Source: an uncultured Lachnospiraceae bacterium (GTDB taxonomy: Bacteria > Bacillota > Clostridia > Lachnospirales > Lachnospiraceae). Taken from it: DNA of 41,831 nucleotides. Each line of letters opens with the position of its first letter. The stretch's first letter is position 1. The stretch covers positions 1 through 41,831 of the forward strand of contig CANQBX010000031.1 in the NCBI GenBank assembly GCA_947589095.1. Reading direction: 5' to 3'. This document shows positions 9,060-34,032 of the stretch, piece by piece. The position numbers and the translations under genes are program-made. A model generated the notes under the pieces. The model did no database searches and had not been told where the DNA came from. It worked only from the letters and a program-made list of their open reading frames with translations.

Positions 9060-9806
9060 TTAGATTTTTCCCGCAAAAAAAAGAGTTACGATATCCTGCT
9101 GCCTGCGGTCAAGCAAGACCCTGCCTATGATCTCCGTCATTATGACCGGATCGGCGGGGCCGGCGCTCTCCGCAGGCTCTTTTGCGGCCGGATTGATCGG
9201 GCGCAGGGAACGGCGGCCGGAAATCTCCCTGTACTGCCGGCAGAGGAGCCGCTGGCCGTGGTTGGCGACCACGATGTCGCCGTCTGCCGGGAAACGCTCG
9301 TTTTTCAGAAAAATATAATCATCCGGATAGAAAATAGGCTCCATACTGCTGTCGTCCATTACCAGCGCGTAATCGGCCGCCAAAGCGGTCTGCGCGTAAC
9401 CGAGACAGTGGATGCCCGCCGTCATGGGCCGGGAGGACACATACCCGAGCACCGGCACCTGCGACGTCATATTCTCAGCCGGGGCGGAAACCGCGTGCAG
9501 CGATATGCGGCCGCCGCTCCGCATCAAACTGATCTCCATGAAATGTTCTATCTTCTCCCTGTCCGCATCGGACAGAAGTTCAAACCGCGCGGCCATAGGC
9601 TGCAGATTATTCTCGGAGGTTCCTGTTACGAGCCAGGAAAGCGATACCTGGAGAAAATTTGCGACAGCGAGAACCTTGTCGACGGACGGCAGGTTTCTGT
9701 CCCACTTGTAGATTGTGCGCGCTCCAAAGCCCAGCGCCTGTTCCAGCTGGGCCAGCGTTATTCCCTGTCCGGCGGCAGCCGTCTTAATGCGCTCAACCAT
9801 TTCCAT
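9060..9806 (-). CDS. XRE HTH / S24 (LexA-CI-like) repressor, probably not self-cleaving
   Basis: Residues 1-60 form an XRE-type HTH (ITLAQLEQALGFGARTIYKW). Residues ~117-220 form an S24 peptidase-like fold, with VPVLGYV, the nucleophile-region DSSMEP (Ser154) and ADGDIVVANHGQRLL. In an ungapped alignment to E. coli LexA, the Ala-Gly cleavage site (VAAGE) becomes VSSRP and the catalytic Lys becomes Arg190. Classical RecA-stimulated cleavage therefore looks unlikely. ATG 9806 is preceded by AGGAGG. It is divergent from the HTH gene at 9990, and the shared 183-bp gap contains GCAAATTTGC palindromes that I take as its operators. It ends 33 bp from the rsmI stop. Prophage or ICE origin is possible, but no phage or integrase genes are present. 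Confidence 0.85.
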   Translation of the reverse strand: MEMVERIKTAAAGQGITLAQLEQALGFGARTIYKWDRNLPSVDKVLAVANFLQVSLSWLVTGTSENNLQPMAARFELLSDADREKIEHFMEISLMRSGGRISLHAVSAPAENMTSQVPVLGYVSSRPMTAGIHCLGYAQTALAADYALVMDDSSMEPIFYPDDYIFLKNERFPADGDIVVANHGQRLLCRQYREISGRRSLRPINPAAKEPAESAGPADPVIMTEIIGRVLLDRRQQDIVTLFFAGKI

Positions 9807-9861
9807 AGAAGCAAACCTCCTTTATGTAGAGCCGAATCTGCCGCCAGTGGGTGGGGGAGCG

Positions 9862-9871
9862 AGCAAATTTT
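9862..9871. promoter_or_regulatory. Imperfect operator copy
   Basis: The sequence CGAGCAAATTTTCG around 9860-9873 repeats the CGAGCAAATTTGCG element 31 bp downstream, about three helical turns away. It lies on the repressor-gene side of the divergent region and could serve autoregulation. Binding is inferred. Confidence 0.45.
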
Positions 9872-9883
9872 CGACTTATCATG

Positions 9884-9912
9884 TTGACATCGAGCAAATT
9901 TGCGAATATAAT
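9884..9912 (+). promoter_or_regulatory. Perfect consensus sigma-A promoter with embedded operator
   Basis: TTGACA (9884-9889), a 17-base spacer and TATAAT (9907-9912) match the consensus at every position. The spacer contains GCAAATTTGC at 9893-9902. A repressor bound there would block RNA polymerase. Transcription would start near 9919 and read the HTH, WQGEV and BTAD genes. Confidence 0.85.
9893..9902. promoter_or_regulatory. Palindromic operator candidate GCAAATTTGC
   Basis: A perfect 10-bp palindrome centred between the -35 and -10 boxes. It lies in an intergenic region with HTH genes on both sides, and an imperfect copy lies at 9862-9871. It is the expected kind of site for the S24-like repressor. 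Confidence 0.6.
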
Positions 9913-9989
9913 GAAACCGAATGAATTAGTCATTGGAATAAATTATATAGTACTTGAAAACATACTTCAAGCGAAAAAAGGAGATATTT

Positions 9990-10187
9990 ATGAGGCGTAC
10001 AAGGAAGCCGACCGCCTTGGGGATGGAGATCAAGAAGGCTCTTTTTGAACAGGATATGACCGTTAAGGAACTGGCAGTTCGGATCAATAAGTCCGAAGCC
10101 ACCGTGTGCGAAGTGATCTCCGGGAAGAATCAGAGCGAGAAGACCAGGGACCTGATCATGCGGGAGCTGAATCTGGCGGCCGAGTAG
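9990..10187 (+). CDS. Small XRE-type HTH protein (65 aa)
   Basis: A single helix-turn-helix: MTVKELAVRINKSEATVCEV is the HTH core, followed by ISGKNQSEKTRDLIMRELNL. ATG 9990 follows AAAAGGAG, so the frame opening at 9954 is probably leader. It is the first gene after the perfect promoter at 9884-9912 and lies opposite the S24-like repressor, so it resembles the Cro partner of a CI/Cro switch. Its stop is 70 bp before the first WQGEV gene. Function is inferred from fold and position only. Confidence 0.8.
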   Translation: MRRTRKPTALGMEIKKALFEQDMTVKELAVRINKSEATVCEVISGKNQSEKTRDLIMRELNLAAE

Positions 10188-10257
10188 GCAGGACGGGAGC
10201 CTGATCACGCAGGGACTGCGTCCGAAGACCGAATAAGTTGACAGGAGAGTCAGGCCT

Positions 10258-10740
10258 ATGAGACAGGACGATGCCGGGAGGATACCCAGATATCTTCTGA
10301 CGATCTATCCCGAGGCAGACAGGGGATTCGCAGGCTTTTACCAGCAGGTGTTCAGGGAGGAGCGGGTTCCGTTCGCGGGGATTGCCCAGCTGCTCCTCTC
10401 TATTGATGAAGAGATCCGCGCGTCCGGCGGAAGCCTGGCGGCGGAACGCGCAGAGGGAGAAGCGCTGTGGGAAAGGGAACGGCCCCGAACCGGAAGGAGA
10501 CGGCAGGATGTACAGCCGGTCCGCCTTCCGCGGGAGACGGGCGCGGTCAATCATTTCCTGATCACAGTGCGCTTCTGCCGCAACGCCACGTGGCAGGGGG
10601 AGGTTCACTGGCGGGAGAAGCATCTGCGCAGGGATTTCAGGAGCTGCCTGGAGCTGACCCGCATGATCGAAGACGCGGCCGGCGGCGGGAAGAGGCAGGG
10701 AGGAGCAGGCGGCCGAAAACAGGACAAAGCAGGGAGATGA
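10258..10740 (+). CDS. 'WQGEV' family protein of unknown function, copy 1 (160 aa)
   Basis: I do not recognise a named family. The C-terminal half carries a pattern shared with the proteins at 14663-15172 and 22857-23369: F-x-V-x-(V)-(K/R)-F/Y-(C/R)-x-N/S-A/T-TWQGE(V/I)-x-W, then FRS(A/C)LEL-x(2)-(L/M)ID. This copy reads NATWQGEVHW then RRDFRSCLELTRMIED. The N-terminal half is weakly similar and ends in a basic, low-complexity linker. There is no signal peptide or membrane segment, so it is probably cytoplasmic. GGAG lies ~10 bases before the ATG. The stop is 1 bp from the next start, so it is translationally coupled to the first BTAD regulator. Confidence 0.75.
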   Translation: MRQDDAGRIPRYLLTIYPEADRGFAGFYQQVFREERVPFAGIAQLLLSIDEEIRASGGSLAAERAEGEALWERERPRTGRRRQDVQPVRLPRETGAVNHFLITVRFCRNATWQGEVHWREKHLRRDFRSCLELTRMIEDAAGGGKRQGGAGGRKQDKAGR

Positions 10741-10741
10741 C

Positions 10742-11971
10742 ATGGGAACCATAGATGCACCGAAACTGGAAATACATATGTTCGGCGGCTTCACCGCAGT
10801 TTACGGCGGCCGGCCGATCACTTTCGGAAGAGGCGGCACAGGAAAGGCTGTGCAGCTTCTTCAGCTGCTTCTGATTCATGGTCAGGCGGGTATTTCCAAG
10901 GAGAAGCTGATGCAGGATCTGTACGACTGGGAGACCGTGACGGATCGGAACAACAGCTTAAACAGCGTTATCTATCGCCTTAAGAAACAGCTGATCGCCG
11001 CCGGTATGCCGGAGGAGGAATATATCTGCCTTAAGAACGGCGTCTGTTACTGGTGCGGCACCATGGAGACCTTCGTAGATACCGTAGCCATGGAATCCCT
11101 GGCGGTTCAGGCGGCCCACGCTTCCGAGGAGGAGCAGATTCGCCTTCTGAAGGAGGCGTGCAGCTTATATACCGGTGAATTTCTGCCCCATCTGTCCGGT
11201 GAGACCTGGGTGACTGTGGAGAATCTGCGTCTCAAGCACATTTATGAGGACGCCGTCCGTCATCTGTGCCAGCTTCTGGAGGCGCGGCAGGAATATCAGC
11301 AGATCTTCGATATCTACAGCAGGGCGGCGGCGCTGTATCCGTATGAGGAATGGCAGGCGTACCAGATCGACAGCCTGCTGGAGATGGAGCGCTATGAGGA
11401 AGCTTACAGCCTGTATCTGAAGGCTACGAAGATGTATTCCGACGAGCTGGGGCTTCCTCCGTCCGAGGAGATGATGAAGCGTCTGCAGCGCATGAGCGGC
11501 AAGCTGGTCAGCCGCGAGAGCAATCTGCTCAAGGTTCGGCGGATGATCACGGAGAACCGGTATGAGCGCGGCGCCTATTACTGTGCGTATCCCAGCTTCG
11601 TGGATATCTACCGTTTCGTGTGCCGCCAGCTGGAGCGCACCGGCCAGTCCGTATTCCTGATGCTGTGCAGCGTTCACAGCACCGACGCGGCCAACCGCTG
11701 GGATAAGGACGCGGGCGACGACCTGCTGAAGGCCATCGGAACCGCCCTGCGCCGCGGCGACGTCTATACGCGCTACAGCAGCAGCCAGTCGCTGATCCTG
11801 CTCTCCGGAACGCGCAATGAACACTGCGAGATCATATACAAGAGGATCTGCCGCGAATTCGAGCGGCTGGAGCATTCGGAGAGATGCCATATCGAATACG
11901 AAGCAGCAACGATCGTTGAGGTGTCCGGCGACCAGCCGGAGATGCACTTCAGAAAGAAGGCCGCATGGTAA
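10742..11971 (+). CDS. BTAD (SARP-like) regulator with degenerate GGDEF-like C-terminus, copy 1
   Basis: A 409-aa protein. Residues ~8-100 form an OmpR-type winged helix (LEIHMFGGFTAVYGGRPI ... NSLNSVIYRLKKQL). Residues ~110-250 form a bacterial transcriptional activation domain of TPR-like helices (SLYTGEFLPHL, EAYSLYLKATKMYSDELGL). Residues ~285-400 look like a GGDEF fold: a strand SVFLMLCSV, then LRRGDVYTRYSSSQSLILLSG, where GGDEF would be replaced by SSSQS. It should therefore lack cyclase activity and may sense a ligand or be structural (inference). It overlaps the next gene, a paralog, by seven bases, and lies downstream of the HTH and WQGEV genes in one probable operon. Confidence 0.85.
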   Translation: MGTIDAPKLEIHMFGGFTAVYGGRPITFGRGGTGKAVQLLQLLLIHGQAGISKEKLMQDLYDWETVTDRNNSLNSVIYRLKKQLIAAGMPEEEYICLKNGVCYWCGTMETFVDTVAMESLAVQAAHASEEEQIRLLKEACSLYTGEFLPHLSGETWVTVENLRLKHIYEDAVRHLCQLLEARQEYQQIFDIYSRAAALYPYEEWQAYQIDSLLEMERYEEAYSLYLKATKMYSDELGLPPSEEMMKRLQRMSGKLVSRESNLLKVRRMITENRYERGAYYCAYPSFVDIYRFVCRQLERTGQSVFLMLCSVHSTDAANRWDKDAGDDLLKAIGTALRRGDVYTRYSSSQSLILLSGTRNEHCEIIYKRICREFERLEHSERCHIEYEAATIVEVSGDQPEMHFRKKAAW

Positions 11972-13185
11972 GAGAAGGACTTCATGTACATATGTTTTCC
12001 GCTTATTCCATGGAATTCGACGGACAGCCGGTGAACATCATGCGCGGCGCCAGTACGAAGGTGCTGCAGCTGTTCGCCATGCTTCTGCTGGCCGGCGGCA
12101 AGGGAATCGCCAAGCGGGAGCTGATCGGCAATGTCTATGGCCAGGGCCAGGACAGGGGCGCCGATCCCAACCGGAATCTGAATAATCTCCTCTACCGCCT
12201 GAAGAAGCAGCTGACTGTCTGGGGTATGGACGGAGCAACCGTGAACCTGGAAGGCGGCTTCGCCCGTTTCGAGGCGGACTTTCCGGTGGAGGTGGATGCG
12301 CTCGCCTTCGAGCAGAAGGCGGAGGAGGCGCTTCTGCGGGAAACTCCCGATCAGACGGAGCTGCTGGCGGACGCCGCGCGGCTCTATACCGGCGAGTTCC
12401 TTGAGGAATACTGTACGGAGCTGTGGGTCATCCAGAAGGATCAGGAGCTGAAGAAGCTGTATTCCAGGGTAATTGAGGCCCTCGGAGCCGCGTACCGGAG
12501 CCAGGGCAATCTCATAAAGGCCCGGGAGGTCTATCATAACGCGTCCCTGGTCTTCCCCTTCGATTCCTGGCAGCTGTCCGAGATGGACTGCCTGATCGGA
12601 CTGAAGGATTATAACGGAGCCTACGCCGTCTATCAGGATACGGAGCGCCTTTACGACGAGGAGCTGGGCATCATGCCCAACGAGGAATACCGCTCGCGTC
12701 TGGAGATCATCGAGCAGAACGCCCTGCGTCCCGTACGCCGTCTCTCCGACATCGCCGAGACCCTGCGCGGGGAGCAGAAGGAGGGCGCTTACTACTGCTA
12801 TTATCCGGATTTTCTGGATTCCTGTCAGATCCTGTCCCGGATCGCCGAGCGCACCGGGCAGTCCCTTTTCCTCCTGCTGTGTACCTGGTCGGTGCGCGGG
12901 GGGGTGGCACGCACCAATTTGGAGAAAAAGCAGCTTGAGGACCGGCAGATGGCGATCCTTAAGGATACCATCGCCCATGTCTTCCGTAAGGGCGACATCT
13001 TCACCAAGTACAGCCGCTGTCAGTATCTGATCATCCTAAGCGGCACCGGCCGCGAGAACGGCGTCCGGGCCTTCGACCGACTCTACCGCGCCTGGAAGAA
13101 GCGGGATGGGATCGTTGGAGATTTAAGCTACAGTATGGATTCGCTGCTGGGATTCCGGGAAACGGAAGGAAGAGCGCAGCGATAG
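11965..13185 (+). CDS. BTAD (SARP-like) regulator with degenerate GGDEF-like C-terminus, copy 2
   Basis: A paralog of the preceding gene, 406 aa, with the same order: winged helix (LHVHMFSAYSMEFDGQPVNI ... NNLLYRLKKQL), BTAD helices (RLYTGEFLEEY, YAVYQDTERLYDEELGI) and a C-terminal GGDEF-like part. Both share the linker pattern GAYYC-x-YP-x-F-x-D and RTGQS-x-FL-x-LC. Here the active-site strand reads FRKGDIFTKYSRCQYLIILSG, so SRCQY stands in the GGDEF position. ATG 11965 overlaps the first BTAD gene by seven bases. Two regulators of one type in tandem may form a heteromer. Likely targets are the neighbouring WQGEV and adhesin genes, but no binding site is recognisable. Confidence 0.85.
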   Translation: MVREGLHVHMFSAYSMEFDGQPVNIMRGASTKVLQLFAMLLLAGGKGIAKRELIGNVYGQGQDRGADPNRNLNNLLYRLKKQLTVWGMDGATVNLEGGFARFEADFPVEVDALAFEQKAEEALLRETPDQTELLADAARLYTGEFLEEYCTELWVIQKDQELKKLYSRVIEALGAAYRSQGNLIKAREVYHNASLVFPFDSWQLSEMDCLIGLKDYNGAYAVYQDTERLYDEELGIMPNEEYRSRLEIIEQNALRPVRRLSDIAETLRGEQKEGAYYCYYPDFLDSCQILSRIAERTGQSLFLLLCTWSVRGGVARTNLEKKQLEDRQMAILKDTIAHVFRKGDIFTKYSRCQYLIILSGTGRENGVRAFDRLYRAWKKRDGIVGDLSYSMDSLLGFRETEGRAQR

Positions 13186-13246
13186 CGCGGAAGGCGCCTC
13201 CGGCGCGCCGAACGCAGACACGGCGAAAGAATCGAATGATAGGATC

Positions 13247-13272
13247 GGGCCCCGCGGGAATCCGCGGGGCCC
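13247..13272. terminator. Strong hairpin between convergent genes, no T-tract
   Basis: A perfect 11-bp stem GGGCCCCGCGG / CCGCGGGGCCC with a GAAT loop lies between the stop of the BTAD pair and the stop of the leftward Rpn-like gene. Neither side has a run of T, so it may be a weak bidirectional terminator or an RNA-stabilising structure. Confidence 0.5.
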
Positions 13273-13278
13273 TGCCGG

Positions 13279-14385
13279 TCAGTTCATGTGTTTTAAGCCG
13301 CTCTTCTCCAGAAACTCATCCAGATTCTTCGCGCGCCGGGCGATCTTGTGCCACGCTTTCAGAGTATCGATATCCTCCTTCGACAGGATCCGCTGCCGCC
13401 ATTCGTCCGGAAGGCGTCCGATGTCCTCCAGCATATCGCAGATGGCTTCAGCGATACCTTCAGCCTTCCCCTCAGCTATACCCTCAGCGATACCCTCAGC
13501 CTTCCCGCACGCGTAATTCTCTTCCCGCTCCAGCTTCATGTGCTCTTCAAAATCATAATCCGTCAGGAACATCTCCACTACCTCCTCCGTGTGCTCCGCC
13601 AGAATATCGTCCAGGATCCCTTTCCGCAGGCAATCCTCCACCGCTTCCCGAACCGCGGCTTCCAGCTCCAGTCCGGCGTCCAGCTGTCCCCGCACCATAT
13701 CCACGAATGTGGCGTACTCCTCCAGCCTCCGGCACTGCCTCATCAGCTCCCGGTTCCGTCCCAGATTGATATTCAGCATAGTCGCCGTCACTTCAATACA
13801 GGGATTCGCAAAGCCTCTGCGCGGTTCCGCGCCGCCCGCCGTGCCGCCGTGCGCGCCACTGCAGCCGCCCGCCACGCTGCCGTGTGCGTCACTGCAGCCG
13901 CCCGCCACGCCGCCGTGCGCGTCACCGCAGCCGCTTACCACAGCCCCATCCGCTCTCTCCCGCGCCGCCGCAAACGCATCCGACAGCCGCAGCGTCATCC
14001 GGTCCGGTTCATCCCCGCGCCCATTATAGAAGACAATATACTGCGGATACGGCAGGTTCTGCAGGCGGCTGCTGTACAGGTTCAGGCTATGCCGCTTCAC
14101 ATACTTTTTATACAGCCTTGCAAAATAAAACAGCCCCCGCACCGGCATGTTCGGATTCCTCGAACTCTGATGCTCCCACAGATTCAGCTCCGCCCCGAAG
14201 AGGAACGCGACGTCGTTCTTCATGTTCATGTAAATGACGTCCTCCAGCGTTACGACCTCCAGCGCGCCCGGATCCGCATAATCCGTTCCGTTCAGCGCAT
14301 TATAAAGCGACAGCATCTCCCGCCGGTCGCCGAAAATAAACCGGAACAGCCGGTCCTTGTACTTCTTATTAACCTTTTTCCCCAT
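13279..14385 (-). CDS. Rpn-family PD-(D/E)XK nuclease-like protein, copy 2 (368 aa)
   Basis: A close paralog of the gene at 1558: the N-terminus MGKKVNKKYKDRLFRFIF, the core Asp in KNDVAFLF, E-x-Q in LWEHQSS, and the second block MLNINLGRNRELMRQCRRLEE are almost the same. The linker between core and second block is longer, because three units of an 11-residue Gly/Ala/Cys/His-rich repeat (GGVAGGCSDAH type) are inserted. The EGIAEGIAEGKAEG run and the helical tail ending near FLEKSGLKHMN are kept. ATG 14385 has AGGAGG/AGGAGA upstream; the frame opens at 14412. It faces the BTAD operon and is divergent from the second WQGEV gene. No transposon ends are visible. Confidence 0.85.
   Translation of the reverse strand: MGKKVNKKYKDRLFRFIFGDRREMLSLYNALNGTDYADPGALEVVTLEDVIYMNMKNDVAFLFGAELNLWEHQSSRNPNMPVRGLFYFARLYKKYVKRHSLNLYSSRLQNLPYPQYIVFYNGRGDEPDRMTLRLSDAFAAARERADGAVVSGCGDAHGGVAGGCSDAHGSVAGGCSGAHGGTAGGAEPRRGFANPCIEVTATMLNINLGRNRELMRQCRRLEEYATFVDMVRGQLDAGLELEAAVREAVEDCLRKGILDDILAEHTEEVVEMFLTDYDFEEHMKLEREENYACGKAEGIAEGIAEGKAEGIAEAICDMLEDIGRLPDEWRQRILSKEDIDTLKAWHKIARRAKNLDEFLEKSGLKHMN
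13831..13933 (-). repeat. 3 x 33-bp in-frame repeat in Rpn-like copy 2
   Basis: A GC-rich unit beginning CACTGCAGCCGCCCGCCACG on the plus strand recurs about three times at 33-bp spacing. It encodes 11-residue Gly/Ala/Cys/His-rich units in the linker of the nuclease-like protein, at the same protein position where copy 3 has its 57-bp repeat. Confidence 0.8.
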
Positions 14386-14662
14386 TCTGCCGATTCTCCT
14401 CCTCGAATTCAATCGATTCCTCCATACATCGGAGCCAAAGTGGATTCAGAAGAGTCTCTTCGGAATCTGCCGGGACGCGCCCCGCAGAAATACATGAGAT
14501 AAAGACTGATGTTCCAATTCATTTTACTTCAAATCCCCCGCCCATGCAACAGAAATGCAAAAAAAGTAAAATTTTTTCCAATTTTCCTGTCCATGAGTCA
14601 AATCCTGAGACACTTCGCCTGCTAAACTAAGTTCAAAACCATCAGAAGGAGGAGGGAGGTCC
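14386..14662. other. Divergent intergenic region between Rpn-like copy 2 and WQGEV copy 2
   Basis: 277 bp without a supported gene. It contains an AT-rich patch at 14551-14585 (runs of A and T around GTAAAATTTTTTCC), which differs from the GC-rich flanks and may hold divergent promoters. I could not assign convincing -35/-10 pairs. Confidence 0.4.
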
Positions 14663-15172
14663 ATGGACAGACCGCTTGCGATACACGGCAGGAACCTGAT
14701 CTGCATCGGAATAGACCGGGTAACCGGCCGCGACTATTCCGGACGGATCTGGCACCAGTACCGGACCGACCCGATCCGGTTCTCCACCTCCATGGAGCTG
14801 ATCCGGGAGATGGACGACTTATACGACAGGTGGAACTTCCCCCAGCGATCGACACTGGTCCGCCGGTTCGGCGGGGAAGAGCATACGGTGTCGGAAGCAG
14901 AACGAGAGGAGGAGATGGCATATATGGATGAAGGACGAATCAAAGGACATACGGGCGATATCGGAACCTTCATCGTCCGCGTCAAATACAGGCAGAACGC
15001 CACCTGGCAGGGCGAAGTAGTCTGGGCCGACAGGCAGGAACGGCAGTATTTCCGCAGCGCCCTGGAGCTCCTGAAGCTTATCGACAGCGCTCTGGAGGAG
15101 ACGGAGGCAGCCGCGGAGGAATCCCCGCCGGAAGCGGAGGATGAGGACGACGGACCCGGCGGCAGCGACTGA
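14663..15172 (+). CDS. 'WQGEV' family protein of unknown function, copy 2 (169 aa)
   Basis: A paralog of the genes at 10258 and 22857. The N-terminal half (NLICIGIDRVTGRDYSGR ... FPQRSTLVRRFGG) matches copy 3 (LMCICIDE ... YPERSTQRRTFRD). The C-terminal half has FIVRVKYRQNATWQGEVVW, then YFRSALELLKLIDSALEE and an acidic tail. There is no signal peptide. GGAGGGAGG lies just upstream of ATG 14663. It is 157 bp upstream of the first giant wall protein and probably on the same transcript. Being soluble and acidic, it could be a regulator, a chaperone for the giant protein or an intracellular adaptor; none of these can be chosen from sequence. Confidence 0.78.
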   Translation: MDRPLAIHGRNLICIGIDRVTGRDYSGRIWHQYRTDPIRFSTSMELIREMDDLYDRWNFPQRSTLVRRFGGEEHTVSEAEREEEMAYMDEGRIKGHTGDIGTFIVRVKYRQNATWQGEVVWADRQERQYFRSALELLKLIDSALEETEAAAEESPPEAEDEDDGPGGSD

Positions 15173-15244
15173 CGCGCGGGGCAGGAGCTCCGGCCCGTAG
15201 CGCCGCAGCCTTATGGAAATGACAACCAGCAGCCACATGTAACC

Positions 15245-15260
15245 GCCGCCGGAAGGCGGC
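15245..15260 (+). other. Small GC hairpin in the leader of giant protein 1
   Basis: GCCGCC-GGAA-GGCGGC is a 6-bp perfect stem with a stable GGAA loop, 70 bp before the giant gene. It has no T-tract. It may affect read-through or mRNA stability between the WQGEV gene and the giant gene. Confidence 0.3.
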
Positions 15261-15329
15261 ACGCACACAGCTCTACAGCAGCTTTCAGATACAGATTTAC
15301 AGGGAAATCAAAGGAAAGGGAGAATCATT

Positions 15330-22694: not shown

Positions 22695-22774
22695 AAAGTA
22701 TCGAAACGTTCCGCGGCTTGTCGGGAGGCAGGCCGCGGAACGAAAAAATTTAAAAAAAATCATAAAAATTTCCA

Positions 22775-22814
22775 AAAAAGGCTGTTGCGCAAGAGTTTGC
22801 GTGACAGCCTTTTT
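22775..22814 (+). terminator. Intrinsic terminator after giant protein 1
   Basis: A stem AAAAAGGCTGT / ACAGCCTTTTT encloses a second stem CGCAA-GAGT-TTGCG and ends in T5. It lies 80 bp after the stop codon, so the next WQGEV gene probably has its own promoter; TATGAT at 22817-22822 is a possible -10 with a poor -35. Confidence 0.85.
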
Positions 22815-22856
22815 GCTATGATGTGCCCAGAAAGTGGAAAAGGAGCTGCGTATGGC

Positions 22857-23369
22857 ATGAACAATTACCGGATCAACACCTCGGCCCCCGACCTGATGTG
22901 CATCTGCATCGACGAGACGGCCGACAGCGGAGACCGGGGGCGGTTGTATCACAAATACATTGCGGAACCGGTCGTATTCCTGAACCTGGGCGATCTCCTG
23001 ACGGAGATGGAGAAGGTCTTCGATCTGACAGGATATCCCGAGCGATCCACCCAGCGCAGAACCTTCCGCGACGAGGCGAAGCCCGATCCGGGCGGCGGTC
23101 CCCGCGGAACCAGAAGGCCCGGAGAGGCCAGAAAGGAGGCGGTCCAGGTGACAGACACCGACACGATTTTGAAGCAGTCCGGCGAATTAGCCACATTTGT
23201 AGTACACGTCAAGTTCCGGCAGTACTCCACCTGGCAGGGCGAAATCGTCTGGGCCGAGAAGAACCGCAAATGCAATTTCCGAAGCGCCCTGGAACTCCTG
23301 AAGCTGATCGACGGAGCCCTGGACGAGGAAGGCGGGCCCCCGGAGGGCGAGGAAAGCCTGTTAACATAA
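22857..23369 (+). CDS. 'WQGEV' family protein of unknown function, copy 3 (170 aa)
   Basis: The closest relative of copy 2: LMCICIDE, PERSTQRRTFRDE, then FVVHVKFRQYSTWQGEIVW and FRSALELLKLIDGALDEE. The frame is open from 22785, inside the terminator of the preceding gene, so I chose ATG 22857 after AAAGGAG (22839-22845). The protein is soluble, with a proline/glycine-rich linker between halves (PDPGGGPRG). It is 130 bp upstream of the second giant protein, repeating the layout seen before the first giant. That the pairing is kept in both duplicated units argues for a functional link. Confidence 0.78.
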   Translation: MNNYRINTSAPDLMCICIDETADSGDRGRLYHKYIAEPVVFLNLGDLLTEMEKVFDLTGYPERSTQRRTFRDEAKPDPGGGPRGTRRPGEARKEAVQVTDTDTILKQSGELATFVVHVKFRQYSTWQGEIVWAEKNRKCNFRSALELLKLIDGALDEEGGPPEGEESLLT

Positions 23370-23499
23370 TATCACAGCAGAACATGGAGCCGGGTCCGCC
23401 CGGCGTACGGAAAGCCAGCCGGAGCGTCATTCCGGCACACCGCTTCTCAAGAGCTTGATCATAGAAGGATAAAGGAAAACAAAGAAAGGGAGTATAATC

Positions 23500-29400: not shown

Positions 29401-30714
29401 CCGTCCAATAAGGTAGAGATCGAGGAAGAGAAGCCGGATCTGACGCCTCATAAGGAGCAGGAGAAGGCATCTGTAGCCCACAGCGACAGCCTGCTTGTCT
29501 CGAGGACTACGGAGGAGTTCCAGACGGAAGCGGGAGATGTTGTGAAATACTACATCACCGTCAAGAATAACAGCGCGACTACAGACGCGCACCACGTAAC
29601 GATATGGGATAAGATCCCGCAGTACACCGATGAGGGAGACCTGCTGCCGCTGCAGCTGGTGGATGGTTCCATCGCGGTCAACGCACCGGCCAGCCGGAAG
29701 GATGCTCCGGAGGATGAGATTGCGAAGCTGAAAGAGCTTGAGGCGAACGGAGTAGAGATCTGGTGGGAGAACGCCGGCGAGCTCGGCGAGGACGGCGTGA
29801 CGATCACATGGAAGATCGACGAGATCAAGGTCGGTGAAACGGCTGAGGTTACATTCTCGGTTCTTGTACCGGAATCGGATAAGCTTGTCCATTGGACGAA
29901 CCAGGCGTACCTGCATCATAATCCGGATGAACCGGATGAGCCGACCGATAAGGTGAAGGTCAACGAGCATACGCCGAACGTCTGGATCGAGAAGGAGCAG
30001 TCCAGCAACCGCTTCGAGAAGACGAAGGAAATGTTCCGGGTATACCAGGGAGACGTAGTGACCTACTACCTGACGGTGCACAGCGACGGCGAGGAGCCGG
30101 CGAGAGGCATCGTAGTGAAGGATACGATTCCGCAGCAGACCACGCAGGGTGACGCGATCCCGCTGATCCTGGTGGAAGACTCCATCTCCGACGGAGGTAC
30201 GCTGGAAGCGGATGGAATCACGATCCGTTGGAACCTGGGAGACATGCAGGTAGGCGATGTGAAGACAGTGACCTTCCAGGTAAGGATTCCGGCTGTATCG
30301 GGAACGCAGAACTGGAAGAACATTTCACAGGTGTCCTACGACAACCCGCCGAAGGATCCGGAGCATCCGGACGATCCGGCGCCCGGAAGCCATGAGAACC
30401 CGACGCCTTCGAACGAGGTAGAGATTTACAAGTTCCCGTACACGCCGACGAATCCGGGCGGCAACCCGGGTGGAAATCCGGGCGGCAATCCCGGAACCGA
30501 GATTCCGGATAACCCGACGCCGCTGGCGAACTTCCCGGATGAACCGGTGCCGCTGGCGTACATCGAGGACGAGGATGTGCCGTTAGCATTCCTTGCCCCG
30601 GCGACGGGAGACGAGAGACCTGTGGGAGCGGCAGCGCTGTTCGGCCTGCTGGCCCTGGGCCTGATGGGAGCCTTTGGAATCAAGGCCTTCAAGAAGGACG
30701 AGGAAGAAGGATAA
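23500..30714 (+). CDS. Giant cell-wall-anchored VWA / pilin-isopeptide / DUF11-type adhesin, copy 2 (2404 aa)
   Basis: A paralog of the protein at 15330 with the same order. The signal peptide region is nearly identical (~31-57). The VWA has a canonical MIDAS DNSGS near 137 and LTDGQATDG near 307. Two beta modules (~936-1192) and two pilin isopeptide-linkage modules (~1196-1364, 1367-1640) follow; the second is interrupted by a Ser-Thr-Glu repeat (1434-1507). Four DUF11-type repeats, an NPGG repeat spacer, APATG at residue 2366, a hydrophobic helix and a charged tail end the protein. The first ~170 bases and last ~720 bases are nearly identical in DNA to copy 1, while the middle has diverged and is AT-rich. 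GGGAG precedes ATG 23500; ATG 23518 is an alternative start. Confidence 0.88.
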   Translation: MKERKEMRLVNTGLGQLGEAAQAFGRRKLTRRIVSGLLAFSMIATTALTNVGITAWAYGEVLPVTTSGADGVTSGRDSANYEERMTLERNSQNSGRVWTDKSVKDNGNGSFTETFSALGSGLQYTGKAASNVVIVFDNSGSMYTSTNAKNGDANPQDAIWANTRIVKTIKAINTAIDTLKKNPQNKVAVVAFAGNDDHTATTVLPMTECGKLKAGHNAEWGDYYLRAVPKETETKKIKDANNKVHYVKTIPGGTAYSVGYTAEKTGEEIPITNGYTNIQAGIAQGMNVLINAYDADDSVVRVPVLILLTDGQATDGLRNVQFDSVTGKVINFTNLGFLNDFNEDYTSFTGKNDENKTTWNRFIEKYIPNDPLKLDETEDYTTITTKFKKDGTPKSQGAQKVVYPYALVSTQNNGKNDNGKGVNEALKTLKTQYKKSQEYMLLSTLITAGYMKKKVKEKYGSCNIFTLTIDLNPLDQNLITSSGPTVSPTTYYNTDKWKNKYSGKYADDTVGNGIFNAMTEANDILDKWKTNDSSLTDPTKDDYLTYRPIEQSKDKLEEATDAYKIKFDNIEKSEDTEAAQQTVLREYIKRYKAGDTDNYGQDKSKGGFWLVSPDLGVLSLPNVPVGEREDVVNNYIKYDDQTWNTTTASDDILSTLNTIVEKSYTVAPSSPISGSFNGIMTYSDPIGQFMEIPADGTFTLNLPYVPESAYDYTVTGTLSSDNNSDNNKVQWPHIPITNPGYGKTFYLDECGFSVEVVTTNAGTANQSQTLNVQVPAVLLPIWVAKYDDTKDVGSKYLQPDESANPLHLSYEVKVIDAIKTPANPDGQIDVTKVDAADPSYVQKNTKNDYLMFYTNKWDGVRANASFTASDTNEYYKANGTHYDGTGGGKTNTKKDGSKPKSPNDNTGTYTGRHEAYTPSQSGSQVTEYLDNNGYYGVQYGSLTLSKAVTNATVSDTFTFKVKLTLGNDAVKSIKPVYTGTASVSSTTSETGEYTVTLGQNASIKFQNLSIGTRYEIEETGLDPYTYRLDDGETNPKSGTIELTNKNVTVGFNNELLTDLKISKTVKAEIDGNHGDAEQELGIDTNVGEEFSFTVTVAGESGERDAELYTDNTLEQKLKVTFNNQGVASDIKLKHNQYIVIKGLSVKAHYTVVEGPVTDAGHRAGEISGKEGELVRKPNEDSFGGEAAATNYFTPTPVRTSLNGLKVLDDAIIDDIDDKPLGKWMYQNGDLKEGVFTFAITPVEDNMPYDPIKNDERYKFIDDKNKYGIIAHNDEQGIFEIFKEATTVFKAPGVYKYQIDEISPNGNQQGMYYDDRMYTLTYTIVQNGRALEIKGGAPTITVATDTAPGNEGTNTDAVVFENHWNPHEIGVKIAGQKVLEGAALQDEMFRFQLIPDGYKLATAANGERADGKMNKPSEPSTKETEENSGVAEISLENETEPGSTEASTESSTEASTEGSTESSTEASTEGSTESSTEASTEGSTETSTEASTEGSTEAGTEESSEEETIAPVPVATPSEVEYWVVESDRTDIPDEEKQSLEYQPMPENDIVTNRDGLFRFGLIRYTEEGTYNYTLKELRTWYEKNPEEEGYGGGNITYDETEYKITVEVTRNWSDGTLNAEVSMTGGPSSDYVRFTNKYNPPHLEPEKEQQKVFSKEQGNWDPYIQKGLTKETIAVEHDDMITYYITVTNNTTNRETEEQGTTGDLLDVVITDKIPDGCQYLNVADFSETDVPNVVGVYDPETRVITWKLDRLKFGQTWQVSFTVRVPDVNDLDQVKEYLNTAHVSTGTGEPEPTNTVTSKEGTPHVSIEKEQTLNDGERTKELLTVDGRDIVTYYLTVTSDGTETARDVVVTDVVPQHPLYGEDKPLTYLEGSAGVLDGGAKSITYDPETKTITWELGDMDGKGLSDPKFNYTPEGTKKTVYFSVIVPDVYEKTRWENAGATYYGNAPEDPDPDRPDEPKGTPEDPIPSNKVEIEEEKPDLTPHKEQEKASVAHSDSLLVSRTTEEFQTEAGDVVKYYITVKNNSATTDAHHVTIWDKIPQYTDEGDLLPLQLVDGSIAVNAPASRKDAPEDEIAKLKELEANGVEIWWENAGELGEDGVTITWKIDEIKVGETAEVTFSVLVPESDKLVHWTNQAYLHHNPDEPDEPTDKVKVNEHTPNVWIEKEQSSNRFEKTKEMFRVYQGDVVTYYLTVHSDGEEPARGIVVKDTIPQQTTQGDAIPLILVEDSISDGGTLEADGITIRWNLGDMQVGDVKTVTFQVRIPAVSGTQNWKNISQVSYDNPPKDPEHPDDPAPGSHENPTPSNEVEIYKFPYTPTNPGGNPGGNPGGNPGTEIPDNPTPLANFPDEPVPLAYIEDEDVPLAFLAPATGDERPVGAAALFGLLALGLMGAFGIKAFKKDEEEG
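27832..27999 (+). repeat. 36-bp in-frame Ser/Thr/Glu repeat in giant protein 2
   Basis: About four to five 36-bp units (each three 12-mers like GCCAGTACGGAAGGCAGCAC plus variants) encode ASTEGSTESSTE. They lie inside the second pilin-type module, at the place where copy 1 has a non-repetitive Ser/Thr/Glu-rich insert. Such runs are often glycosylated and change length by slippage. Confidence 0.88.
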
Positions 30715-30747
30715 AAGTAATGAAATGAAGCGGAGCGGCTTCACGGA

Positions 30748-30781
30748 GGGTCTCCGGCCATATGGCCGGGGACCCTTTTTT
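30748..30781 (+). terminator. Intrinsic terminator after giant protein 2
   Basis: A 12-bp stem GGGTCTCCGGCC / GGCCGGGGACCC (one G-T pair) with an ATAT loop is followed by T6, 33 bp after the stop codon. Confidence 0.9.
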
Positions 30782-30791
30782 CGGAGATGCG

Positions 30792-31144
30792 GTGCATACG
30801 GCGGTACGCGGACCCGGCCGCGGGCGGCGTGGATGCCGCGGTACGCGGACCCGGCCGCGGGCGGCGTGGATACGGATGTACGCGGATTCGGCCGCGGGCG
30901 GCGTGGATACGGATGTACGCGGATCCAGCCGCGGGCGGCGTGCATACGGCAGTACGCGGACTCGGCCGCGGGCGGCGCGCATATGGTGGTACGCGGACTC
31001 GGCCACAGCGGCGTGGATACGGAGGTACGCGGACTCAGCCGCGGGCGGCGTGCATACGGAGGTACGCGGACTCGGTTGCGGGCGGCGCGCATACGGAGGT
31101 ACGCGGTACTCGGCCGCAGGCGGCGTGGATGCCGCGGTAAACGG
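30792..31144 (+). repeat. 37-bp minisatellite, about 9.5 copies
   Basis: TACGCGG recurs at 30805, 30842, 30879, 30916, 30953, 30990, 31026, 31063 and 31100, so the period is 37 bp with one 36-bp unit. Each unit holds TACGCGGACTCGGCCGCGGG followed by CGGCGTGGATACGGAGG or a close variant. It is uninterrupted, so it is not a CRISPR array. Since 37 is not a multiple of three, no frame repeats cleanly. Several open frames cross it on both strands, but they lack RBS support and I do not call them genes. It fills most of the 640-bp gap between giant protein 2 and the next gene. Confidence 0.93.
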
Positions 31145-31180
31145 TACAAACAAGAAGGCTGGGATTGACGATATATTTTC

Positions 31181-31209
31181 TTGCCATTTCTTTTGACATC
31201 TGCTATAAT
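31181..31209 (+). promoter_or_regulatory. Sigma-A promoter of Rpn-like copy 3
   Basis: TTGCCA (31181-31186), a 17-base spacer and a perfect TATAAT (31204-31209). The ~140-base leader to ATG 31355 contains a compound hairpin (GATCTTCGGA with TCCGAAAGATC, inner CGGAG-AAT-CTCCG, ~31231-31266). Confidence 0.65.
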
Positions 31210-31354
31210 CATGTCTGGATACAGTCAGTTTGCTCATGATCTTCGGACGGAGAATCTCCGAAAGATCCGGATACTTTTCACATTTCATTTTTCTGCCTTG
31301 CCTTTTGGTATTTACAGGCAGGTTCTTTTTGATGTACAATAAGGGGGTAAATTT

Positions 31355-32920
31355 ATGTCACAGGATAATGTAACCGTCAACCGGGAGTATAAGTCCAGCC
31401 TTTTCGCCCGGATCTTCTCCGAGCCGGAGGCCGCTTTAAGCCTTTACAATTCCCTTAACGGCTCCAATTACGACGACCCGTCCGGGCTGGAGATCAATAC
31501 CATCGAGTCCGTACTCTACATCGGCTGGAAGAACGACGTTTCCTTCCTGATCGGAAGCGACATGAACCTGTACGAGCACCAGGCGACCTGGAACCCGAAC
31601 ATGCCTCTGCGGGGGCTGTTCTATTTCGCCGACCTGTACCGAGGGTACGTGTCGTCACGGAGTCTGGATATCTACGCCGGAGTGCCGCTTAAACTGCCCG
31701 CGCCCAGATATACGGTCTTCTATAACGGCACGCGGGAGGAGCCGGAGAGTCTGGAACTGCGGCTGTCGAGCCTGTTTATGAAGAAAGACGGGGTGCGAGC
31801 CGAGGAGGCTGCGTCGGAGCCGTCGGGCCTATTTCCGAAGAAGGATGGGGTGCGGGCCGGGGAGGCCGCGGCGGAGCTGTCGGGCCTGTTTTCGAAGGAG
31901 GACGGGACGCGGGCCGAGACGGCCGTGCCGGAGGTGTCGGGTCTGTTCCCGAAGAAGGATGGGGCGCGGGCCGAGGCGGCCGTGCCGAAACTGTCGGGCC
32001 TGTTTCCGGAGAAGGACGGGGCGCGTGCTGAGGCGGCCGTGCCGGAACTGTCGGGTCTGTTTCCGAAGAAGGACGGGGCGCGTGCTGAGGCGGCCGTGCC
32101 GGAGGTGTCGGGTCTGTTTCCGAAGAAGGATGAGGCGCGGGCCGGGGAGGCCGCGCCGGAGGTGTCGGGTCTGTTCCCGAAGAAAGATGGGGTACGGGCC
32201 GGGGAGGCCGCGCCGGAGGTGTCGGGTCTGTTCCCGAAGAAAGATGGGGTACGGGCTGAGGAGATTCCGCCGGCGCTGGAATGTACGGCGCAGGTGCTGA
32301 ACATCAATTTCGGCCACAACCGGGGGCTGATGGAGCGGTGCCGGAAACTGTACGAGTATTCGTACTTTATCGACGCGGTCCGTCGTCATCTGAGGGAAGG
32401 GCTGACCCTGGGAGCAGCCCTGGACCGGGCGGCGGACGAATGCATCGCTGGGGATATCCTGAGGGAATTTCTCTTGAAACACAGAGCGGAGGTGGCGAAT
32501 ATGGTAATGCCGGAATTCGATGCGGAACTGCATGACCGTACGACGCGGGAGATCGGGTATAACGAGGGGTATGACGAAGGCAGAGCCGCTGGGATTGCTG
32601 AGGGCATCGCTGAGGGCAGAACTGCCGGGATTGCCGAGGGCAGAACTGCCGGGATTGCTGAGGGCAGAACTGCTGGGATTGCTGAGGGCAGAACTGCCGG
32701 GATTGCCGAGGGCAGGGCCGCCGGGATTGCAGAGGGCATAGCTGAAGGTAAAGCCGGAACCGTCTGCGACATGCTCTCCGATGTCGGACTGCTTCCGGAG
32801 GTATGGCGAGAGCGGATCATGGCCGAGCGCGACATCGACACGCTCGATATATGGATTCGGACCGCCCGGCGTGCCGGGAGTCTGGAAGAATTCCTGGCGA
32901 AAGCCGGGCTGGAGACATGA
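31355..32920 (+). CDS. Rpn-family PD-(D/E)XK nuclease-like protein, copy 3, with large repeat insertion (521 aa)
   Basis: A third paralog. Core marks are KNDVSFLIG, LYEHQATWNPNMPLRGLFYF and the second block VLNINFGHNRGLMERCRKLYE. Between core and second block, residues ~138-308 are nine units of a 19-residue repeat (SGLFPKKDGVRAGEAAPEV). The C-terminal Glu-Gly-Ala run is also expanded, with alternating EGRTAGIA units. The helical tail (WIRTARRAGSLEEFLAKAGL) is as in the other copies. AAGGGGG at 31341-31347 precedes ATG 31355. Its length (521 aa against 327 and 368) comes from the repeats, not extra domains. It precedes the sortase on the same strand. Confidence 0.85.
   Translation: MSQDNVTVNREYKSSLFARIFSEPEAALSLYNSLNGSNYDDPSGLEINTIESVLYIGWKNDVSFLIGSDMNLYEHQATWNPNMPLRGLFYFADLYRGYVSSRSLDIYAGVPLKLPAPRYTVFYNGTREEPESLELRLSSLFMKKDGVRAEEAASEPSGLFPKKDGVRAGEAAAELSGLFSKEDGTRAETAVPEVSGLFPKKDGARAEAAVPKLSGLFPEKDGARAEAAVPELSGLFPKKDGARAEAAVPEVSGLFPKKDEARAGEAAPEVSGLFPKKDGVRAGEAAPEVSGLFPKKDGVRAEEIPPALECTAQVLNINFGHNRGLMERCRKLYEYSYFIDAVRRHLREGLTLGAALDRAADECIAGDILREFLLKHRAEVANMVMPEFDAELHDRTTREIGYNEGYDEGRAAGIAEGIAEGRTAGIAEGRTAGIAEGRTAGIAEGRTAGIAEGRAAGIAEGIAEGKAGTVCDMLSDVGLLPEVWRERIMAERDIDTLDIWIRTARRAGSLEEFLAKAGLET
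31766..32278 (+). repeat. 9 x 57-bp in-frame repeat in Rpn-like copy 3
   Basis: Nine consecutive 57-bp units, each encoding 19 residues of the type SGLFPKKDGVRAGEAAPEV. The first (SSLFMKK) and last (AEEIPPAL) are the most diverged, as expected for an array that grows inside. The unit probably arose from the native linker, since SSLF continues directly from LELRL of the nuclease core. The array keeps the frame. Confidence 0.95.
32581..32748 (+). repeat. 24-bp in-frame repeat (EGRTAGIA) in Rpn-like copy 3
   Basis: Units like GGGCAGAACTGCCGGGATTG, with a short GC-rich end, recur at 24-bp spacing and encode GRTAGIAE octapeptides. They match the shorter Glu-Gly-Lys-Ala runs near the C-terminus of the other two paralogs. 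Confidence 0.88.
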
Positions 32921-32940
32921 CCGCGGCCCGGAAGTTTTTC

Positions 32941-32969
32941 TATACATATTTTGGAAACTGTGCTATAAT
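32941..32969 (+). promoter_or_regulatory. Candidate promoter of the sortase gene
   Basis: TATACA (32941-32946), 17 bases, TATAAT (32964-32969). The -10 is perfect and the -35 is weak. It starts 21 bp after the Rpn-like stop, so the sortase may also be reached by read-through. Confidence 0.5.
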
Positions 32970-33022
32970 TCCAGGAAAGGCGCGTGATGGGGGCGAGCGC
33001 GCGCATATGGAGGTGTGTCTGG

Positions 33023-33910
33023 ATGAGTAAGAAGCAGAAGAAAAAGATATACAGGATCCTGTTCCTGCTCTCGCTGATCATTTTCCTGATCTGCGCAGGG
33101 ATGCTTCTGTGGTTCTGGTGGGATTACCGCAAGGCGGAGGTCGAGTACGACCAGGTAGCGGAGAATGTGGTGTCGGTCCGGCCGCAGGCGCAGGAACCGG
33201 AGGGGGGCGCGTCCGGCGAAGAGGCGCAGGGCGGCGCGCAGGCGCCTGCCGAGGATAAGGACCGTCCGGCGCTTATCATTGATTTCGGGGAACTGGCGCA
33301 GATCAACGACGACGTGGTGGCGTGGATCGATTTCCCGGGACAGGACATCAGCTATCCGGTGGTGCAGGGGGACGATAACAGCCGTTACCTGCGCTGGTCG
33401 GTGAACGGTACCCGAAGCTCGTCCGGCGCGATCTTCGCGGATTACCGCAATGAGGGCGTGATGAAGGACGGCAACACGATCATTTACGGGCATAATATGC
33501 GCAACGGCTCCATGTTCGGTACGCTGAGAAGGTACCGGGAGAAGGAGTATTGCGAACAGTTTCCGTATTTTGACGTGTATACGCCGGAGGGCGTGTACCG
33601 GTGCGTGATCATCGTGTCGAGTCAGGTGCGTCCCTATGAGGACAGTTACCGGGTCGTGTTCTCGGATGCGGACGATCGGGACGCGTATATTTCGCTCGTG
33701 AAGGAGCGGCAGTATTATGAGCTTCCGCAGGTGGAGAGCGACGGGAGCGTGCCGGCGGCGGATTTCATGAAGGTGCTCGGCAGAAGCGGCTCCGGGGAAG
33801 GCAGCGCGCCGCCTCTGGTGCTTCTGTCCACCTGTACGGGTTCGGGGCATGCGTATCGGAACGTGCTGCTGGCGCAGGTGCAGAAGTTCTATCCGGCAGA
33901 AGATGAGTGA
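33023..33910 (+). CDS. srtB: Class B sortase
   Basis: Membrane-anchored cysteine transpeptidase that cleaves a sorting signal between Thr and Gly and joins the protein to peptidoglycan. The N-terminal membrane helix spans residues ~10-33, followed by an acidic/Ala linker. The catalytic set is His157 in IIYGHNMRNGSMFG, Cys271 in LLSTCTGSG and Arg279 in HAYRN. The class B pattern is seen in VVAWIDFPGQDISYPVVQ. The frame opens at 32984, but ATG 33023 has GGAGG (33009-33013), giving 295 aa. It is the only sortase in the window, and the two giant proteins carry APATG signals, so they are its likely substrates (inference). Confidence 0.92.
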   Translation: MSKKQKKKIYRILFLLSLIIFLICAGMLLWFWWDYRKAEVEYDQVAENVVSVRPQAQEPEGGASGEEAQGGAQAPAEDKDRPALIIDFGELAQINDDVVAWIDFPGQDISYPVVQGDDNSRYLRWSVNGTRSSSGAIFADYRNEGVMKDGNTIIYGHNMRNGSMFGTLRRYREKEYCEQFPYFDVYTPEGVYRCVIIVSSQVRPYEDSYRVVFSDADDRDAYISLVKERQYYELPQVESDGSVPAADFMKVLGRSGSGEGSAPPLVLLSTCTGSGHAYRNVLLAQVQKFYPAEDE

Positions 33911-33959
33911 TGGGATGAATATGGGCAGAGCGTCGCGGCGCTCAGTCTGCTTGGAAATA

Positions 33960-33988
33960 CGGGCAGAGCGTCACGGCCGCTCTGCCCG
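33960..33988. terminator. Perfect 11-bp hairpin after the sortase
   Basis: CGGGCAGAGCG-TCACGGC-CGCTCTGCCCG. Its left arm, GGGCAGAGCGTC, is also present as a direct copy 36 bp upstream at 33925. There is no T-tract, so termination is less certain than for the next hairpin. Confidence 0.5.
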
Positions 33989-34002
33989 CATGGCGATAAG
34001 AG

Positions 34003-34032
34003 AGCCGGCGGCGTGGAGAGCCGCCGGCTTTT
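34003..34032 (+). terminator. Intrinsic terminator of the sortase transcript
   Basis: AGCCGGCGGC-GTGGAGA-GCCGCCGGCT followed by T. It lies 92 bp after the sortase stop and before the convergent aldo/keto reductase. Confidence 0.75.

Follow-up and report, generated by a model that had tools for sequence, protein, structure and literature searches.

The subject of this analysis is a block of genes at positions 9060-34032 of a 41,831-nt stretch of DNA (the 'window'), which is contig C31 (CANQBX010000031.1) in the 4.1 Mb genome of an uncultured Lachnospiraceae bacterium (assembly GCA_947589095.1; 192 contigs, completeness 97.6%). The block carries a phage-type repressor, two regulators of the AfsR/EmbR type (BTAD1 and BTAD2), three copies of a small protein with a conserved TWQG core (WQG1 to WQG3), two giant adhesins and a sortase (Table 1); these are the parts that an earlier, sequence-only reading of the window had named, and they stand in the order it had given, with a WQG gene once before the regulators and once before each giant (WQG1-BTAD1, WQG2-giant1, WQG3-giant2). 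Its description of the giants as VWA proteins is borne out for giant1, which lies above the Pfam VWA_2 cut-off; giant2 lies below it. That reading had omitted two Rpn-like genes as well as a degenerate GGDEF domain at the C-terminus of the BTAD proteins. We propose, at a probability of about two in three, that these genes form a unit through which two regulators control giant adhesins anchored to the wall, and that the regulators, activators of the AfsR/EmbR type responsive to cyclic di-GMP (c-di-GMP), would stand under the phage-type repressor; gene anatomy, the WQG family, the operators, the covariation of operator with BTAD protein and the conservation of the I-site are what we observe by computation.

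Table 1. Features of the block, with positions and strand in the window
Feature	Position	Strand	Details
XRE repressor, S24 (LexA/CI-like) C-domain	9060-9806	-	Pfam S24 E 9e-12, HTH_3
Divergent control region, repressor/rightward operon	9862-9912	+	AGCAAATTTTCGA at 9862, palindrome GCAAATTTGC at 9894
65-aa helix-turn-helix (HTH)-like protein (by eye)	9990-10184	+	First open reading frame (ORF) of rightward operon
WQG1	10258-10740	+	Two-domain; immediately 5' of BTAD1
BTAD1	10742-11971	+	Winged HTH (wHTH) + BTAD (AfsR/EmbR-like) + degenerate GGDEF; RRGD I-site motif
BTAD2	11965-13185	+	Architecture as BTAD1 by alignment; RKGD I-site motif
Rpn-like protein	13279-14412	-	Homologue of 31355-32920; weak TIGR01784 match, E 0.044
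Putative operator/promoter of WQG2-giant1	14594-14628	+	TGAGTCA-N5-TGAGACA-N10-TAAACT
WQG2	14663-15172	+	
Giant adhesin 1, 2454 aa	15330-22694	+	VWA, FctA, DUF7601, DUF11; PATGD sorting signal
Putative operator/promoter of WQG3-giant2	22788-22822	+	CGCAAGA-N5-CGTGACA-N10-TATGAT; score 21
WQG3	22857-23369	+	Start corrected
Giant adhesin 2, 2404 aa	23500-30714	+	DUF7601, DUF11, VWA under cut-off; PATGD sorting signal
Rpn-like protein 2	31355-32920	+	Internal peptide repeats; weak model support
Class B sortase	32984-33910	+	Pfam PF04203; TIGR03064 E 7e-41

Pfam assigns Trans_reg_C and BTAD domains to BTAD1 and a BTAD domain to BTAD2; BTAD1 matches the AfsR/EmbR fold, with an N-terminal wHTH followed by BTAD, an arrangement shared with the actinobacterial SARP/AfsR and EmbR proteins over about 240 residues. 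The regulators described here end in a GGDEF-type domain, which other SARPs are not known to do, and their targets would be surface adhesins in Clostridia. Residues from about 280 to 397 of BTAD1 match GGDEF domains both by fold and by sequence, with the I-site stretch aligning to the RxxD of a cyclase. Across 40 aligned BTAD C-domains (3 of 43 BTAD proteins were left out of the alignment) RxxD is present in 40/40 and GG[DE]EF in 0/40, which on this motif speaks against an active diguanylate cyclase; the lost active-site motif reads [SNG]xxQ[YFS], with Gln at the position of the motif Glu in all 40. An Arg lies 28 residues after the I-site Asp in 39/40, and columns G28, F37, R46, R50, Q100 and E111 of the alignment (A6) are also invariant. 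A regular-expression check of all 43 proteins found RxxD in 41, the other two (from L022 and L025; loci are numbered with the prefix L throughout) ending before the motif.

A dead GGDEF domain that has kept its I-site points to c-di-GMP sensing as the most likely function of the BTAD C-domain. The same combination of a degenerate A-site and an intact RxxD is found in the receptors SgmT and PopA, and SgmT is reported to bind c-di-GMP through R763, D766 and R794, the second Arg lying 28 residues on, as here (PMC3509222). Unlike in SgmT and PopA, the dead GGDEF is here joined to a DNA-binding activator, and its binding of c-di-GMP is a prediction. Two proteins with an intact GGDEF are encoded in the window's genome, and GGDEF-type genes lie at most 150 bp from WQG in three loci, the motif being intact in two of them. 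As a separate observation, the BTAD gene is interrupted or shortened within the GGDEF-like domain, with the operator kept, in L071 (7564-8920), L022 (8357-9776) and L025 (8187-9335).

Upstream of WQG or giant genes lies a common candidate operator, in which two tandem heptamers with a spacer of 4 or 5 nt stand 9 or 10 nt from a -10 element; these shared predicted sites lend substance to the earlier suggestion of a regulated surface-display system. The usual SARP site consists of heptameric direct repeats with 4-15 nt spacers that overlap the -35 region (PMC10972967); the present sites are alike in their tandem heptamers at the -35 region and differ in period, usually 12 bp and in one clade 11 bp, the classical value being 11 bp. 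With a first, looser score, WQG and control regions were clearly apart only at the highest cut (18/89 vs 1/161). A refined pattern, written after the sites found by the looser score had been seen, was reached at its threshold of 22 by 33/89 WQG upstream regions and by 7/14 second WQG genes, compared with 3/70 other large genes, 0/53 BTAD genes, 8/715 other genes and 0/356 shuffles. Self-control of BTAD through heptamers was also considered and is not supported, with 0/53 BTAD upstream regions scoring at least 21.

Since the refined pattern is post hoc, its scoring was frozen and tested on further loci. In the 87 training loci 43/64 sites lie beside WQG, in zones that make up 4% of strand-bases. 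In 57 new loci the frozen score gave 31 sites, 16 of them upstream of WQG, 7 within 700 bp after it and 8 elsewhere, which places 23/31 beside WQG in zones covering 15% of strand-bases, or 16/31 in the pre-chosen upstream zone alone, the 700-bp downstream zone having been picked after sites before giants were known; reversed sequences gave 1 site. Any site that the training loci also carry was taken out before the count, L114 and L115 share one site, and the site in L126 was counted as 'elsewhere' though it precedes a 54-aa WQG below the ORF cut-off; the genomes belong to the family and class of the training loci, such that the sites are new and the organisms related. Over all 144 loci (1.59 Mb), 59 of the 98 sites fall just upstream of WQG, and the strict WQG2-site pattern has two matches in the window's genome, both before WQG.

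Site type follows BTAD clade, with heptamers of the types TGAGAYA, TGTAATG, CGTGATN, CGAAAGA/TGAAATA and TGTAACC (11-bp period), and the farther apart two DNA-binding domains are, the more their sites tend to differ: the Mantel r is 0.72 for 29 loci (the two window rows and two L027 rows left out) and 0.68 for 21 loci after thinning, with 0/5000 permutations in each of the two tests. The nearest relatives of BTAD2 (in L024, L030 and L017) have heptamers identical to those of the WQG2 site, and the nearest relative of BTAD1 (in L011) has heptamers unlike the WQG3 site at 1/14 positions. By these likenesses BTAD2 would match the WQG2-giant1 promoter and BTAD1 the WQG3-giant2 promoter, and the sharing of heptamers among relatives is why the duplicated unit seems to be made of two regulator-promoter pairs. 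We regard the regulator-operator step as well supported; it would imply that BTAD proteins bind the heptamers and activate from them. The start of WQG3 is most likely the ATG at 22857 rather than the TTG at 22785, because the promoter covers 22788-22822.

This set of genes recurs in other genomes, and WQG is not found mostly without giants or BTAD, the outcome by which the earlier reading proposed to judge its own case: of 60 WQG loci collected with no reference to BTAD, 45 contain it, mostly a short way 5' of WQG, and in 44/82 evaluable cases (excluding clusters for which a contig end truncates the following gene) the WQG cluster is followed within 1 kb, in the same direction, by a gene for 800 aa or more, against 8/159 for control genes from these loci that encode 130-230 aa and 20/670 for all other genes of 90-800 aa. 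These counts come from a simple longest-ORF caller, and some opposite-strand neighbours are spurious ORFs. Among 120 genomes compared, 29 encode WQG, and 28 of these encode BTAD too, whereas 13 genomes have BTAD and lack WQG (67 BTAD rows with the N-terminal part kept were counted, C-domain-only rows were dropped, and the last three, fragmentary WQG rows were left out); among the 67 WQG loci of those 29 genomes, BTAD lies within 6 kb in 29 and farther along the contig in 11. Domains in 22 scanned large proteins beside WQG, a number that includes one 217-aa Maf-like protein (L035), were DUF7601 (11), VWA (7), SpaA (7) and FctA (6), and sortases occur near WQG in L069 and L083. WQG directly precedes BTAD in L011, L020 and L039 as well as in the window. 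What recurs as the core is a WQG gene with its giant, on which BTAD would act either locally or in trans, and not one fixed island, because in the loci fetched for upstream comparison the repressor is rare beside BTAD, and BTAD is missing from the contig of many WQG loci. With this refinement the earlier reading of a regulated surface-display system is largely upheld.

Some of the neighbourhoods hold other surface-related genes. In L028, L049, L031 and L036, BTAD, WQG and a large protein are followed by small genes in much the same series, which in L028 encode secreted repeat proteins (TasA-like by eye) and a SipW-like signal peptidase. Type IV pilus-like T2SSE/T2SSF, prepilin-like and GGDEF genes stand opposite BTAD-WQG in L047 (1584-8389), with gene blocks that resemble this one by size in L053, L059 and L062, and in L084 (8273-12981) WQG is followed directly by a capsule operon (Polysacc_synt_2, CpsB/CapC, Wzz/AAA).

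There are eight clear WQG copies in this genome, three in the window and five elsewhere, and WQG2 and WQG3 are homologous to WQG1 (31 and 34% identity). A scan of public genome contigs added 60 WQG loci, mostly from Lachnospiraceae and some from other Clostridia, and the gene was found in 61/298 sampled genomes of the family and 12/243 of the class. The eight copies and the presence in 61/298 genomes are more than chance would give. An AlphaFold2 model built from 69 sequences (mean pLDDT 84) shows two beta-beta-beta-alpha domains, and WQG looks like an internal duplication because comparison of N- and C-half profiles (probability 87%, score 29) exceeds anything seen among 100 column-shuffled controls (13.4 at most). 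The C-domain also occurs alone, in a second form of 56-90 aa; the 169 WQG ORFs whose domain pattern was scored, counting duplicates, comprise 109 of N-C and 53 of C only. Conservation is centred on the TWQG core and a helix start of F-R-S-x-L-E, with conserved R/N/T/W/Q/E residues surrounding one beta-hairpin of the beta-beta-beta-alpha domain. With no export signal by eye, this is a cytosolic family, and a previously undescribed one; searches of Pfam, NCBIfam, PDB sequences and PDB folds gave no consistent relative, Pur-alpha ranking second among weak fold matches (E 0.68, TM 0.24). In one protein, from a single-contig genome (L080), WQG is fused to an EAL domain. BTAD and WQG also share one open frame in L154 (4281-6098), adjoining a signal peptidase I-like gene (by eye); we did not count this as a fusion, its linker looking like an untranslated spacer read through. 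Two 'Bacteriophage sp.' records that come from human faeces and lack annotation contain WQG-like stretches (MT836211.1, 383-769, 34% identity; MT837964.1, 31-150, 53%), and WQG1 has no plasmid match. Within the pathway, WQG would most likely act as a partner or modulator.

Between the repressor and the rightward operon lies a promoter, TTGACA-17-TATAAT at 9884-9912, whose spacer holds GCAAATTTGC, with a near copy of this repeat 31 bp upstream. Both copies are kept in L017 at the same distance of 31 bp (its -35 is TTGGCA), and L024/L096, which are one locus represented twice (likewise L023/L089), keep the promoter and one exact copy. Among the neighbourhood loci fetched for upstream comparison, the repressor stands next to BTAD only in L017 and L024/L096. 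The 65-aa HTH-like ORF has no Pfam match; it is kept at 80-89% identity in L024, L096 and L017 and at 65% in L048. By LexA positions, aligned by eye, the residue that we take to be the catalytic Lys of the S24 domain is Cys in the window, L017 and L024/L096, and the presumed catalytic Ser is Thr in L024/L096. The repressor is probably not self-cleaving, and an S24 domain lacking the Lys of the dyad makes an SOS-type cleavage switch unlikely here.

At its C-terminus each giant has a PATGD sorting signal, then a hydrophobic stretch followed by a charged tail. They are mosaics, in which by blastn the first 170 bp are 93.5% identical, the last ~1.9 kb are 76% identical and the middle is mostly unaligned. 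The sortase scores 140.1 bits for TIGR03064 against a curated cut-off of 153.75, and we infer that it anchors the giants. Between giant2 and the second Rpn-like gene, positions 30762-31196 are repetitive, with overlapping long ORFs and a repeated RG-rich peptide, and the Rpn-like protein itself has repeats of the KKDGARAEAAVPE and GIAEGRTA types; homologues of the Rpn-like proteins also lie between BTAD and WQG in L011.

Several observations weigh against the proposed control unit. The Mantel test leaves shared ancestry in the regulator-site correlation, and the pairing of BTAD1 with WQG3 is based on one close relative (L011), the WQG3 site of the window itself scoring 21, below the threshold of 22. 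The training loci also hold 21 sites away from WQG, and their reversed sequences 15; sites at or above the threshold stand beside WQG in 42/87 training and 20/57 new loci, where flanks are often short. The WQG copies on contigs C9, C11 and C163 of the window's genome (L074, L075 and L073) are absent among the best 45 upstream sites, and for 27/67 WQG loci the contig, in some cases a short one, carries no BTAD. For the predicted messenger, the SgmT paper reports that a mutant without the receptor domain is unchanged in phenotype and expression in the assays used (PMC3509222).

The operators might belong to some other factor, with BTAD merely hitch-hiking on adhesin loci, and some WQG loci (L018, L054, L072) do have sites and no BTAD on the fetched stretch; given that the sites have the SARP architecture set out in PMC10972967 and that their type follows the BTAD wHTH, this strikes us as quite improbable. 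Even less credence attaches to the idea of an insertion, derived from a phage or a mobile element, whose gene order is accidental: the phage-type repressor, the Rpn-like genes, the duplicated giants and the WQG-like stretches in phage records would suit it, but the recurrence of BTAD, WQG and giant together in many genomes makes it very unlikely, and WQG1 matches no plasmid. A more serious contender keeps BTAD as activator of the WQG-giant promoters and makes of its GGDEF-like C-domain only a dimerisation module, or one for a different ligand, with no role for c-di-GMP. In its favour, other C-domain residues are just as invariant, so that the domain may take such a ligand; retention of the I-site alongside loss of the active-site motif in 40/40, the WQG-EAL fusion and the adjacent GGDEF-type genes speak against it, and we consider it doubtful.

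For WQG itself several roles can be imagined. It could be a nucleic-acid-binding regulator of long surface operons (a local co-activator, antiterminator or translation factor), in keeping with its small size, its lack of an export signal by eye, the clustering of its conserved residues at one beta-hairpin, its place as the first gene before very long units and the rank of Pur-alpha among weak fold matches; with no significant fold or family match to set beside these, the role is possible, and doubtful on balance. If WQG instead served the following giant as a cytosolic chaperone for secretion or as a partner in assembly, with no regulatory or signalling part, this would explain why it so often immediately precedes giants and why many giants have their own WQG copy in this genome and in the congener G097, but it also precedes BTAD in four loci, the window included, and a capsule operon in L084, and is fused to EAL in L080, and we think this unlikely. 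We speculate, at similarly low odds, that WQG is a beta-beta-beta-alpha c-di-GMP-signalling module that pairs with GGDEF- and EAL-type proteins, and which, by binding the dead GGDEF of BTAD, might set the c-di-GMP response of each giant, which would amount to a protein-based, adhesin-specific c-di-GMP switch in use across Lachnospiraceae.

Returning to the two-regulator unit, we suggest that the divergent XRE-S24 repressor would act on the promoter of an operon encoding the HTH-like protein, WQG1, BTAD1 and BTAD2, and that the winged helix of each BTAD protein would then bind a pair of tandem heptamers a short way 5' of a -10 element, such that BTAD2 would switch on WQG2-giant1 and BTAD1 would switch on WQG3-giant2. 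The dead GGDEF C-domain would sense c-di-GMP, and so couple adhesin display to the messenger, WQG, cytosolic and co-expressed, would serve as a partner or modulator within the same pathway, and sortase B would attach the giants to the wall. What we infer in this scheme is that BTAD binds the heptamers and c-di-GMP and activates transcription, that the genes are grouped in an operon, what WQG does and which substrates the sortase serves.

The proposed logic resembles that of the Clostridioides difficile c-di-GMP riboswitch, through which the messenger reportedly controls wall-anchored adhesins and sortase substrates; here, in contrast, a protein activator and promoter sites would do the work. 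No Rfam match reached its gathering score within the window, and a c-di-GMP-I riboswitch search of the genome gave no match, nor did its control, so that no conclusion follows. In PimR, a SARP-LAL regulator of Streptomyces, the SARP domain is likewise joined to a cyclase-like region; that region is described as a homologue of guanylate cyclases and of LAL regulators rather than of GGDEF, and the protein controls an antibiotic. Among the open-licence papers listed in our searches we found no description of this BTAD-WQG-giant system, no occurrence of the string WQGEV and no general control system for the giant adhesins of gut Lachnospiraceae; the sole paper found with both a BTAD domain and GGDEF concerns Ser/Thr kinase architectures (PMC1262709). 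The kinds of part are themselves known; it is the WQG family and the combination that we have not found described.

Giant adhesins are likely to be a main means by which gut Lachnospiraceae make contact with the host and with food particles, and the locus offers a testable control system for them, with named regulators, exact predicted operators, a messenger that can be predicted and, in WQG, a protein family not described before and present in about a fifth of the sampled Lachnospiraceae genomes. If our proposal is true, SARP-type control would shift from antibiotic clusters to surface display in Firmicutes.

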